DNA from: Niastella vici
GTDB lineage: Bacteria > Bacteroidota > Bacteroidia > Chitinophagales > Chitinophagaceae
Length of the DNA: 64,000 nucleotides
Assembly: GCF_002077945.1 (NCBI RefSeq)
Contig: NZ_LVYD01000001.1
Span: 372,001 to 436,000 of the forward strand
Reading direction: 5' to 3'
Both the position numbers and the translations under genes were made by a program. Shown here in pieces: positions 46,327-49,800 of the stretch. Numbering within the stretch: the first letter of the stretch is position 1; the number at the start of each line of letters is the position of its first letter. The notes beneath the pieces were generated by a model, which was not told the origin of the DNA, ran no database searches, and worked only from the letters and a program-made list of their open reading frames with translations.

Positions 46327-47424
46327 ATGACTACAGCCACCACAAGAACAACCTGGCGGCGACTTAAAAAGAACAAAGGCGCACTGATTGGTATTACTAT
46401 TATCGTTCTGGCCATTATGATAGCTGTATTTGCTTATCTGCTGGCTCCGGATGGCTCGCCCAATGCGAACAGGATGATAGTGGAAATTGGCGGTCAGCAA
46501 CCCGGCTATTCCCGGCTGTTCCTGCAATTACCCAGGGAAAAAAAGATAAAGCCTACCCCATTTTTTGAGCGATTGTTTTATGGTGCAGAAGACAAATACC
46601 AATATATTCCCATTCAAAGCTATCAGGCAACAAAGGATAGCCTGATCATTCAGAAATACATTGATGAAGGCATTTATGAAAGAGTGGCCCTGCCACTTTC
46701 ACAAACCCGCTGGCAGGAAGGATCAGCTTCCGGTGCGTTTAAGGTCACAACAAAAAAATTCAGGCTGGGCTCCGATAAATATGGCCGCGATATTTTAAGC
46801 CGGTTACTGGTAGGCGTACGCGTAAGCCTGGGAGTTGGCCTGGTAACCGTACTTATTTCATTGAGCATTGGCGTAATGCTGGGCGCACTGGCGGGTTATT
46901 TCAGGGGCAGAACCGATGATGCCATTATGTGGTTCATCAATGTGATCTGGAGCATCCCTACCCTGTTGCTTGTTTTTGCCATTACCCTGGTGTTGGGCAA
47001 AGGCTTCTGGCAGGTTTTTGTAGCCATTGGATTAACCATGTGGGTAAGCGTGGCGCGCATCATTCGCGGACAGGTATTAAGCGTACGCGAGCTGGAATAT
47101 GTAGAAGCAGCCAAAGCATTGGGCTTTTCACATACCCGCATCATTTTACGCCATGTGCTGCCTAATGTAATGGGACCGGTTATGGTAGTGGCGGCTTCCA
47201 ATTTTGCATCTGCCATTGTTATTGAAGCCGGTTTGAGCTTTTTGGGTGTTGGGGTACAGCCCCCACAGCCAAGCTGGGGGTTAATGATCAAAGAAAATTA
47301 CAACTTCATTATTACACATAATCCTATGCTGGCATTGGCGCCCGGCTTTGCCATTATGCTGCTGGTGCTGGCCTTTAATATGCTGGGCAATGGCTTACGC
47401 GATGCGTTACAGGTAAAAGAATAG
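46327..47424 (+). CDS. ABC transporter permease, DppC/OppC family
   Basis: The 365-residue protein begins with an OppC-type N-terminal helix (18-42). It then has a periplasmic insert of about 110 residues (45-155), longer than in enterobacterial DppC. The permease core has LGSDKYGRDILSRLLVGVRVSLGVG and the EAA loop (EYVEAAKALGFSHTRIILRHVLPN). A final AGLSFLGVGVQPPQPSWG is typical of oligopeptide or nickel importers. No second permease, ATPase or binding protein is adjacent, so it depends on genes elsewhere. Confidence 0.88.
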   Translation: MTTATTRTTWRRLKKNKGALIGITIIVLAIMIAVFAYLLAPDGSPNANRMIVEIGGQQPGYSRLFLQLPREKKIKPTPFFERLFYGAEDKYQYIPIQSYQATKDSLIIQKYIDEGIYERVALPLSQTRWQEGSASGAFKVTTKKFRLGSDKYGRDILSRLLVGVRVSLGVGLVTVLISLSIGVMLGALAGYFRGRTDDAIMWFINVIWSIPTLLLVFAITLVLGKGFWQVFVAIGLTMWVSVARIIRGQVLSVRELEYVEAAKALGFSHTRIILRHVLPNVMGPVMVVAASNFASAIVIEAGLSFLGVGVQPPQPSWGLMIKENYNFIITHNPMLALAPGFAIMLLVLAFNMLGNGLRDALQVKE

Positions 47425-48025: not shown

Positions 48026-48496
48026 TTACTGTGTAAAAACCTGAACATTACGGGTGAAACTTTCCTCCAGTGAAATAAACGTTTCGGTGCGCTCAATTCC
48101 TTTTATCTTCTGTAATTCATCGTGTAATACAAACCGTAATTGATTAATATCTTTACAAACTATTTCAGCAAACATGCTGTAATTACCTGTTGTATAATTC
48201 AAACGTACAATTTCGGGGATGCGCTGCAGTTCTTTGGCTACTGAATCGTACAGGGAGCTTTTCTCAAGATATATGCCAATAAACGCAATTACGTCATATC
48301 CGAGCTGTTTTAGGTCCACATTTAATTTTGTACCTTTGACAATACCTGCTTCCTGTAGCTTTTTTATACGTACATGTATAGTACCTCCGGAAACGAATAA
48401 CTTCTTACCCAGGTCTGCATAAGAAATTTCTGCATTATCCATCATCTCATGGATTATCTGCAGGTCCAGTTTATCTAAATTCAATTTAGTCGCCAT
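48026..48496 (-). CDS. Lrp/AsnC family transcription regulator
   Basis: From ATG 48496 (MATKLNLDKLDLQIIHEM) the protein has 156 residues, the usual Lrp size. The winged helix includes ISYADLGKKLFVSGGTIHVRIKKLQEAGIVKG. The RAM/AsnC effector domain follows from about 70, with the G-x-x-D/S-turn TTGNYSMFAEIV. It reads amino-acid or small-ligand levels. A palindrome upstream (48570-48590) in the gap to the tRNA-like genes is a candidate operator. The open frame to 48529 adds 11 residues without reason. Confidence 0.9.
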   Translation of the reverse strand: MATKLNLDKLDLQIIHEMMDNAEISYADLGKKLFVSGGTIHVRIKKLQEAGIVKGTKLNVDLKQLGYDVIAFIGIYLEKSSLYDSVAKELQRIPEIVRLNYTTGNYSMFAEIVCKDINQLRFVLHDELQKIKGIERTETFISLEESFTRNVQVFTQ

Positions 48497-48569
48497 TTTT
48501 GCAATCGTTTTTTTACAAATTTCAAGCAAGTATGCAAATATTTATATATTGTCGAAACTTTCAAAATTT

Positions 48570-48590
48570 TTGTTGAATAATTTACAACAA
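48570..48590. promoter_or_regulatory. palindrome TTGTTG-N9-CAACAA, possible Lrp/AsnC operator
   Basis: Perfect 6-bp arms flank an AT-only 9-bp centre, 74 bp before the Lrp/AsnC start and 57 bp before the first tRNA-like gene. AT-rich centred palindromes of this size suit this regulator family. Confidence 0.4.
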
Positions 48591-48646
48591 TACTGGCAAT
48601 TTCTTTAATATTGCTATGAAATAGCTCTTTAAACAGCGATAAATAC

Positions 48647-48781
48647 TGTGGGGTGATGGAACTTTGGCAGACATGCCCTCTCGTCTCGAGGGTGGGGAAT
48701 ACTGGTTAATTTCAGGAAGGACAAATTACGCTTTCGGGCGTGGCTAACAACCCCGTGGAGGTTCGAATCCTCCTCCTACAG
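48647..48781 (+). tRNA. class II tRNA-like gene 1, oversized variable arm, anticodon position GUC
   Basis: The 135-nt segment folds as a tRNA. Acceptor TGTGGGG (48647-48653) pairs with TCCTACA (48774-48780). T8, G9 follow. The D-stem ATG/CAT encloses AACTTTGGCAGA with G18-G19. The anticodon stem is CCCTC/GAGGG with loop TCGTCTC. The T-stem is GGAGG/CCTCC with canonical TTCGAAT. The variable region is about 64 nt and is closed by GGGG/CCCC. CCA is not encoded. Position 33 is C rather than the universal U, and position 37 is U, so decoding is doubtful. The D-arm is closest to tRNA-Leu. Confidence 0.6.
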
Positions 48782-48805
48782 CAGCTTTTTTACACGTTTT
48801 TATCT

Positions 48806-48973
48806 TGTGGAGTGATGGAACTTTGGCAGACATGCCCTCTTGTCTCGGGGGTGGGGAGTTCGGGATAAACGTGGTGTAATGCCGGTTTAAGCAATTAGGC
48901 CGACTGGGGTTGACCACCACAGATTTGCACCATGGCTAACTGCCCCGTGGAGGTTCGAATCCTCCCTCTACAG
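48806..48973 (+). tRNA. class II tRNA-like gene 2, oversized variable arm, anticodon position GUC
   Basis: The 168-nt segment is homologous to gene 1. Acceptor TGTGGAG (48806-48812) pairs with CTCTACA (48966-48972). The D-arm is identical. The anticodon stem is CCCTC/GGGGG with loop TTGTCTC (U33 present, GUC at 34-36, U at 37). The T-arm is GGAGG-TTCGAAT-CCTCC and position 73 is G. The variable region is about 97 nt, closed by GGGG/CCCC, and its interior is unlike gene 1 except for TGGGGA at the start and GGCTAAC before CCCC. A strong terminator follows at once. Confidence 0.6.
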
Positions 48974-48980
48974 CTTAATA

Positions 48981-49010
48981 AACCCCCGGTATTGTATACC
49001 GGGGGTTTTT
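48981..49010 (+). terminator. terminator of the tRNA-like pair
   Basis: A perfect 12-bp stem (AACCCCCGGTAT / ATACCGGGGGTT, loop TGT) ends in five T and starts 8 bp after the second tRNA-like gene. Confidence 0.9.
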
Positions 49011-49071
49011 AGTTTATATACCTCCATACGCTCATTCTGCAACCAATCTTTTTTCCCTACATTTTCTCGCC

Positions 49072-49079
49072 TATTTTTG
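49072..49079 (+). promoter_or_regulatory. -7 element TATTTTTG of trmB
   Basis: Exact TAnnTTTG 7 bp before the trmB ATG, so a very short leader is expected. Confidence 0.4.
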
Positions 49080-49086
49080 CCGATCC

Positions 49087-49800
49087 ATGGGTCAAAAAAA
49101 ATTACAACGCTTCGCAGAAGTAAGCACCTTCTCAAATGTGCTGCAATACCCGGAAAACATGCCGGGAAACTGGAATACCTTTTTTCATAACAACAATCCC
49201 ATTACGCTTGAACTGGCTTGTGGCAAGGGTGAATATGCGGTGGGTTTGGGCCGGTTATATGCCCAACGGAACTTTTTGGGTGTTGACCTGAAAGGGAACC
49301 GCATTTGGGTAGGCGCCAAAAAAGCCCTGCAGGAAAACTTAACCAATGTTGGCTTTCTGCGCACCCAGATCGATCGTATTGCCACATATTTTGGGCCGGG
49401 CGAAGTATCGGAGATCTGGTTAACCTTCCCCGATCCGCAATTAAGGACCTCCAAGGCCCGCAAAAGATTGACCCATCCCAAATTCCTGCGCCTGTACCAA
49501 CAAATTCTGCGGCCGGGTGGTTATATTCACCTGAAAACCGATTCGCCCAGTTTGTACCGGTTCACCAAATGGGTCATTGACCTGTACGATCTGCCGGTTA
49601 TAGAAGATATAGAAGATGTATATGCCGGGGAATCAGTTAGCGAGGTTTTACAAATAAAAACGCATTACGAGGGTCTCGACATAGCCCAAAGCAACAAAGT
49701 GCATTATTTGCAGTTCATGCTGCCGGCCACTCCTTTACCCGATAAAGAAAGCGCTTTAAAAATTTTATTGCTTGAAGAAGAAGCTGACCGAAGGAGTTGA
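49087..49800 (+). CDS. trmB: tRNA (guanine-N7-)-methyltransferase
   Basis: The 237-residue protein has the TrmB signature. LELACGKGEYAVGLGRLY gives the SAM motif I, NFLGVDLKGNRIWVGAKKAL motif II, and EIWLTFPDPQLRTSKARKRLTHPKFL the substrate loop with P-D-P and R-x-x-K-x-R. It makes m7G46 in the variable loop of class I tRNAs. The next gene overlaps its 3' end by 29 bp. The two tRNA-like genes with abnormal variable regions lie directly upstream but are separated by a terminator. Confidence 0.93.
   Translation: MGQKKLQRFAEVSTFSNVLQYPENMPGNWNTFFHNNNPITLELACGKGEYAVGLGRLYAQRNFLGVDLKGNRIWVGAKKALQENLTNVGFLRTQIDRIATYFGPGEVSEIWLTFPDPQLRTSKARKRLTHPKFLRLYQQILRPGGYIHLKTDSPSLYRFTKWVIDLYDLPVIEDIEDVYAGESVSEVLQIKTHYEGLDIAQSNKVHYLQFMLPATPLPDKESALKILLLEEEADRRS

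Follow-up and report, generated by a model that had tools for sequence, protein, structure and literature searches.

The locus studied here poses the question of what two adjacent tRNA-like genes with giant variable arms and the anticodon GUC do in Niastella vici (Chitinophagaceae). They lie in a stretch of 64,000 nucleotides (contig NZ_LVYD01000001.1, positions 372,001 to 436,000), referred to as the window. A sequence-only reading of this DNA had proposed two complete cloverleaves with variable regions of about 64 and 97 nt, GUC at positions 34-36, U37, C33 in copy 1 and a U-A first pair; it suggested either tRNAs that misread Asp codons or tRNA-derived regulatory RNAs. All of the named features were found in the sequence at the places given. 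The elements of the locus are, in positions of the window:

48026..48496, minus strand: divergent gene of an AsnC-type regulator, 156 aa when counted from the ATG chosen (NCBIfam, Pfam, identity to E. coli AsnC)
48606..48613, plus strand: TAATATTG, similar to the -7 promoter element in Bacteroidota
48623..48635, plus strand: boxA-like AGCTCTTTAAACA in the leader
48647..48782, plus strand: tRNA-like copy 1, 'short' type, 64-nt variable region (sequence, alignment, covariance-model match)
48680..48690, plus strand: anticodon loop region of copy 1; GUC at 34-36, U37, C38, C33
48806..48974, plus strand: tRNA-like copy 2, 'long' type, 97-nt variable region with internal loop GAUAAA/CUAA and UUGA hairpin (sequence, alignment, covariation)
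48839..48849, plus strand: anticodon loop region of copy 2; GUC at 34-36, U37, C38, U33
48907..48917, plus strand: GGGUUGACCAC hairpin in the long arm of copy 2 (UUGA loop, bulged A)
48980..49008, plus strand: intrinsic terminator-like hairpin and T-run (hairpin search)
49087..49800, plus strand: trmB, tRNA m7G46 methyltransferase, the next gene downstream (kept in part of the relatives)

The tandem locus and its homologues

Copy 1 comprises 136 nt including the 3' GC and copy 2 169 nt, with a spacing of 23 nt. Both have the same D-arm sequence, the T-loop TTCGAAT, acceptor stems of 7 pairs (G-U counted) and U-A as the 1-72 pair. The leader contains TAATATTG, which resembles a -7 element according to the Bacteroidota promoter consensus. 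A TANNTTG-type match was present in 94 of 132 homologous leaders, while mononucleotide shuffles gave a mean of 30.4 and a maximum of 42; for the boxA-like G[TC]TCTT the figures were 75 of 132, 5.0 and 9. A similar boxA-like motif occurs in the 16S rRNA leader of the relative G013; leaders were compared in relatives because the assembly that holds the window yielded no 16S rRNA. Where a terminator had been noticed earlier behind the pair, there is a terminator-like hairpin with a T-run (one found, against a mean of 0.5 in shuffles). Leader motifs and terminator-like hairpin suggest that the pair is transcribed, in line with the sequence-only reading. The downstream trmB is probably not part of the RNA system. 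Upstream, an oligopeptide ABC transporter permease gene (46327-47424) is a conserved neighbour of the locus in some relatives. Outside the window, atypical tRNA genes form two compact groups in the host chromosome, one of 12 and one of 5 genes (L073 and L063; G000:C1:154900-156060 and C1:555671-556192), which resemble tRNA arrays of mobile elements or prophages.

Existing tools passed over the locus. ARAGORN called no tRNA or tmRNA anywhere in the 64-kb window, and tmRNA identity was dropped on this ground. The comparison with Rfam, proposed earlier as a check, brought up no other known RNA: there was no match at gathering level for either gene, and the Rfam tRNA model gave none up to E 1 across 48550-49080. 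Low-threshold Rfam matches near the locus were discarded as terminator look-alikes. The family seems to be undescribed; no description was found in open-licence full-text papers, a set outside which most subscription papers lie.

Homologues, which the sequence-only reading had suggested looking for in other Chitinophagaceae, were abundant. A blastn search with copy 2 gave matches in 41 of 59 relatives at E <= 0.1, the weakest of them short. In plasmids blastn found nothing. From 30 kept loci 42 copies were extracted; all 30 loci have the long type, preceded in 12 by the short type. A covariance model built on 26 long copies matched 208 of 298 genomes of the order, 171 with E < 1e-15 (counted from the table) and the remaining 37 weakly; copy 1 itself gave E = 1.5e-28 (locus L206, 1342-1477). 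Strong homologues were present in 68 of 85 sampled genomes of the same family, the window's own included. In a phylum-wide draw of 395 genomes, 40 had matches with E < 1e-20, 20 of them from the same class outside the order and 3 from outside the class. Strong and weak matches were separated by a gap in both searches (weakest strong genome 4.5e-24 versus strongest weak 9.8e-13 in the order; 2.8e-21 versus 2.4e-13 in the phylum draw). Excluded from the counts were matches whose length, 83-87 nt, is that of a tRNA-Leu (E about 1e-3 to 1e-13). The exact-pattern matches listed came from Chitinophagaceae or other Chitinophagales, Saprospiraceae, and Bacteroidota or unclassified metagenome assemblies. 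Several genomes hold 3-5 copies by the covariance-model search, and a Saprospiraceae metagenome contig carries three in tandem (L098:41-466).

Conserved fold and fixed positions

In the 26 homologous long copies the 36 named pairs were formed in 98.7% of the cells, and 15 of them changed on both sides. The covariation score was 0.295, compared with 0.065-0.103 when partners were slid by 1-3 columns, and in 500 shuffles none of the five measures was reached. Acceptor, D, anticodon and T arms of a tRNA cloverleaf were all recovered with covariation. Thus the earlier view that the structure is kept by compensatory change held. Because single-sequence folding energies were unexceptional (z -0.08 and -1.62), the case rests on comparison. 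From its base upward the variable arm has stems of 4 bp and 3 bp, then an internal loop that is conserved as GAUAAA/CUAA, then a stem of 9 bp in which 7 pairs show changes on either side. It is topped by one variable hairpin and one UUGA hairpin; in the 26 copies the latter is closed by A-U 12 times and by G-C 11 times. Short copies and distant copies retain the lower arm only.

The sequences point to descent of the family from a tRNA-Leu body: D-arm (GAAAYTGGYAGACA), A15-U48 type core and the GU ahead of the T-stem agree with those of the genome's own tRNA-Leu genes, and tRNA-Leu is also the size of the weak matches of the covariance model. In contrast to tRNA-Leu, the RNA has G73 instead of A73, an Asp-like anticodon loop and the giant arm. 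Position -4 is A in 116 of 129 copies compared with 34 of 59 native tRNAs. An eighth pair C(-1)-G73 was considered and dropped, with position -1 being C or T in 118 of 129 copies but A in 11.

The count of fixed elements covers 160 distinct copies from hosts and 58 from phages; 3 further host copies and 1 phage copy were left out as incomplete or unreadable. G73, C74 and G2-C71 were present in all 218. U1-A72 was found in 159 host copies (G-A in the other one) and in 53 phage copies, the other five having A1-U72. G34 occurred in 159 of 160 host and all phage copies, and U35, C36 and C38 in every copy; the five residues G73, G34, U35, C36 and C38 were found together in 159 of 160 and 58 of 58. 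Position 37 in the host copies is T in 156, C in 3 and G in 1, position 33 is T in 114, C in 42, G in 2 and A in 2, and the 10-25 pair is A-U in 142. Positions 20/20a read C-A in 228 of 235 rows matched. In the phages compensatory changes occur at the acceptor pairs 3-70 to 7-66, and 2-71 is invariant.

Part of these copies had been found using patterns that contain GTCTC. Among 41 host copies found by the covariance model in a search without GTCTC (31 of the 50 loci L200-L249), G34 was present in 40 and U35, C36 and C38 in 41. A like search yielded 24 new phage loci with GUC in 23 of 23 readable loops (two of them read by eye), C38 in 22 and G38 in one, position 37 as U in 18, C in 4 and A in 1, and G73 and G2-C71 in all 24. 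The model was trained on the anticodon loop, so these sets lean slightly toward a GUC-type loop.

The five residues are the strong aspartate determinants, and U1-A72 is the pair that GatCAB recognises for amidation, with G1-C72 and U20a as antideterminants (PMC9976931, excerpt). By its sequence the RNA appears to join AspRS identity to GatCAB identity: the Asp set is nearly invariant, and U1-A72 occurs without U20a. The bacterial tRNA-Asp elements G10 and G1-C72 are missing, A10 being present in most copies, and we count this against charging by AspRS. Charging by SerRS or LeuRS, to which the class II shape had directed attention, is not favoured. LeuRS identity in bacteria requires A73, and the listed Ser determinants are G73, C72, G2-C71, R4-Y69, C11-G24 and a large variable region (PMC9976931, excerpt); G73 is found in 218 of 218 copies, and C72, R4-Y69 and C11-G24 occur jointly in none of the 160 host and 58 phage copies. 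The family does not combine U33 with a purine at 37, and pyrimidine 37 together with a free position 33 speaks against decoding.

AsnC-type gene, gatB and synthetases

The regulator gene divergent from the RNA encodes a protein scoring 166 bits with NCBIfam AsnC (cut-off 227) versus 54 bits with Lrp; it matches Pfam AsnC_trans_reg, and its identity to the E. coli AsnC protein is 42.5% in an alignment of 146 aa. The AsnC-type gene lies divergent and upstream of the RNA in 94 of 111 host loci; among the other 17, some have little upstream sequence and others different neighbours. A strong RNA match is lacking in 17 genomes of the family. In 10 of them there is no AsnC-type orthologue at E 1e-10, 2 have only a 28%-identical match, and 5 keep an orthologue of 65-89% identity; one of these five, G170, has an RNA fragment cut by the contig end.

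If the RNA is a substrate of GatCAB, its presence should follow gatB. This prediction was tested with 35 RNA-positive genomes picked before gatB was looked at (25 of the same family, 9 of the same class, 1 of the same phylum) and with 15 RNA-negative genomes of the same family; the other two of the 17, G170 and G231, were left out because their AsnC-type gene is at a contig end. All 35 RNA-positive genomes have gatB, and none of the 15 RNA-negative ones does (Fisher p = 4e-13, a value that ignores kinship and overstates independence, the 15 negatives representing 9 genera). The genera g51 and g52 each hold both states, RNA and gatB present and RNA and gatB absent. gatB was also found in 12 of 14 control genomes; many bacteria have it for other purposes.

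Of the same 50 genomes, 48 have a pair of full-length class Ic synthetases, which by size and score we read as GluRS and GlnRS; they include 33 of the 35 RNA-positive ones; the RNA-positive G689 and G580 seem to be without GlnRS. Class IIb synthetases were searched for in 11 of these genomes, 5 with the RNA among them, and each has three, read as AspRS, LysRS and AsnRS. An AspRS or AsnRS paralogue was also considered and rejected, with no extra class IIb enzyme in any of the 11. Given the GlnRS-like and AsnRS-like enzymes, GatCAB has no evident duty for Gln-tRNA or Asn-tRNA in most RNA-positive genomes. AsnRS, GlnRS and GatCAB occur together in 68 of 547 genera, for which tRNA-dependent asparagine synthesis or a vestigial GatCAB is discussed (PMC4206432, excerpt).

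An AsnB-family protein scored above the cut-off in 24 of the 35 genomes with the RNA and in 12 of the 15 without it; thus the RNA would not be the sole asparagine route in those 24. Seven RNA-positive genomes (G027, G024, G128, G275, G309, G319 and G623) have no AsnB-family match better than E 1e-10; for G319 the best one was no better than 7e-13. A tblastn search of 2.4 Mb of G319 (120 of 157 stretches, 77%) with E. coli AsnA gave no match at E <= 1, while the controls MnmG and AsnC were found in the same search.

Proposed function, phage copies and alternatives

We consider it probable that the RNA is a non-decoding tRNA which is charged by AspRS, amidated by GatCAB and dedicated to asparagine synthesis under AsnC control, and which phages have borrowed. 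The RNA would be matured like a tRNA, with a CCA end added; the native 3' end is G73-C74 in 218 of 218 copies, and the host's native tRNA genes likewise end in N73-C. The ordinary AspRS would load it with aspartate by reading G34, U35, C36, C38 and G73. GatCAB would then convert Asp-RNA to Asn-RNA, since the first pair is U1-A72 rather than the G1-C72 of tRNA-Asp. Pyrimidine 37, the lax position 33 and, in most members, the giant arm would keep the RNA out of decoding, as it must be because asparagine brought to Asp codons by the anticodon GUC would be toxic. Finally, asparagine would be supplied from the Asn-charged RNA, a step including its unloading, and the divergent AsnC-type regulator would control the RNA gene where E. 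coli has asparagine synthetase A. AspRS approaches its tRNA from the side of the variable loop, so that the giant arm may hinder it. The wider formulation, an RNA gene that has left translation to become a reusable cofactor, loaded with Asp, amidated by GatCAB, unloaded as asparagine and controlled by AsnC, its phage copy being an RNA metabolic gene, has in our estimate an even chance of being right.

Several known systems share parts of this scheme. The tRNA-Asn of the indirect pathway (AspRS and GatCAB) likewise combines Asp identity in the anticodon loop with G73 and U1-A72 (PMC9976931, excerpt); the RNA differs from it by GUC instead of GUU, pyrimidine 37, the tRNA-Leu body and the giant arm, and is presumably not used by the ribosome. 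With tRNA-Asp it has G34, U35, C36, C38, G73 and G2-C71 in common, and its loop CUGUCUC deviates from the native CUGUCAC at position 37 only, yet it has U1-A72, mostly A10, pyrimidine 37 and a class II arm. In E. coli asnC-asnA an AsnC-type gene is also divergent from an element serving asparagine synthesis, which there is the gene of an enzyme, asparagine synthetase, and here an RNA gene. The tRNA-Gly set that Staphylococcus uses for its cell wall is aminoacylated, non-translating and poor in decoding; it concerns a different amino acid and pathway and lacks a giant arm. Allo-tRNAs and other non-canonical bacterial tRNAs have long variable arms and odd anticodons, but 8/4 or 9/3 acceptor/T stems instead of the 7/5 found here (PMC7609411, excerpt).

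The alternative that survives best, though we regard it as unlikely, is an RNA that holds or tunes AspRS and GatCAB as scaffold or regulator of a transamidosome, the real product being Asn-tRNA-Asn. It accounts for the gatB link and the synthetase and GatCAB identity elements, and transamidosomes containing tRNA have been described (PMC9976931, excerpt). The native tRNA-Asn of the host genome also carries U1-A72; hence GatCAB could act on Asp-tRNA-Asn, provided that AspRS is non-discriminating. Such a scaffold would not require an anticodon so strictly Asp-like, and it depends on an AspRS able to charge tRNA-Asn. Non-discriminating bacterial AspRS have His at the position of E. coli Leu30; the AspRS of the relative G319, the one genome inspected, has Phe.

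Phages also carry members of the family, which according to the favoured reading would be borrowed copies of a tRNA dedicated to asparagine synthesis. Scanning IMG/VR with three patterns gave 78, 43 and 68 contigs, 102 in all, each of which the covariance model matched at E <= 1e-4 (L312 and L341 with partial copies). Nine of ten proteins from five viral loci match PHROGs families, terminase, NinB, exonuclease and DNA polymerase among them. blastn in named phages gave no match with a host copy or three phage copies; one phage copy matched the 636-kb uncultured phage LR756504.1, which the covariance model confirmed (4.8e-30). Eleven distinct phage copies are only 93-96 nt long, which implies that not all members need the giant arm. 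Such forms (L279, L268, L286 and similar) have an ordinary class II arm and are called tRNA-Asp by ARAGORN, so that tRNA-Asp calls in phage annotation may be this RNA family. L265 and L331 have near-complete tRNA sets (24 and 23 tRNA calls, L265 also with a tmRNA), with the RNA in or beside the array.

A regulatory RNA or decoy apart from amidation, such as an AspRS sponge, an aspartate-charging sensor or a phage bait for anticodon nucleases, would suit an RNA with a conserved structured arm that is ill-fitted to decoding and borne by phages, 41 of the 102 viral loci having no ARAGORN gene in the stretch examined. We think it improbable, somewhat more so than the scaffold, as it leaves U1-A72, the AsnC neighbour and the distribution of gatB unexplained. 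A working translational tRNA, either an unusual tRNA-Asp or a Ser-charged tRNA misreading Asp codons, has still less in its favour. The anticodon and the complete cloverleaf would fit it, as would the position in phage tRNA arrays, some with a tmRNA (present in 12 of 102 viral loci), and the ARAGORN calls for the 93-96-nt forms; G73 and a long arm suit SerRS (PMC7609411, excerpt). Against it stand pyrimidine 37, the variable position 33 and the lack of the joint Ser determinants. Moreover, the host has the usual tRNA set with ordinary tRNA-Asp genes, and a separate ordinary tRNA-Asp lies beside the RNA in four viral loci (L265, L317, L331 and L337). Thus the misreading of Asp codons proposed by the sequence-only reading is not favoured; identity elements and co-occurrence with gatB point to AspRS and GatCAB instead. 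A remnant or pseudogene of tRNA-Leu, suggested by the Leu-like D-arm and U48 region and by the model's uptake of tRNA-Leu-size matches, is contradicted by covariation, wide conservation and phage copies and is most improbable.

The RNAs constitute a widespread structured family without an Rfam match at gathering level. Should synthesis of asparagine on this RNA prove true, it would provide a partner for GatCAB, whose retention in bacteria with AsnRS and GlnRS has been called possibly vestigial (PMC4206432, excerpt), and explain why Bacteroidota with both enzymes keep it. A tRNA would have turned into a metabolic cofactor, and an RNA gene would join what phages take from their hosts. One member of the family (L249:1501-1611, genome G623) has the anticodon UUC instead of GUC with U1-A72 retained and could represent the same principle applied to Glu/Gln.
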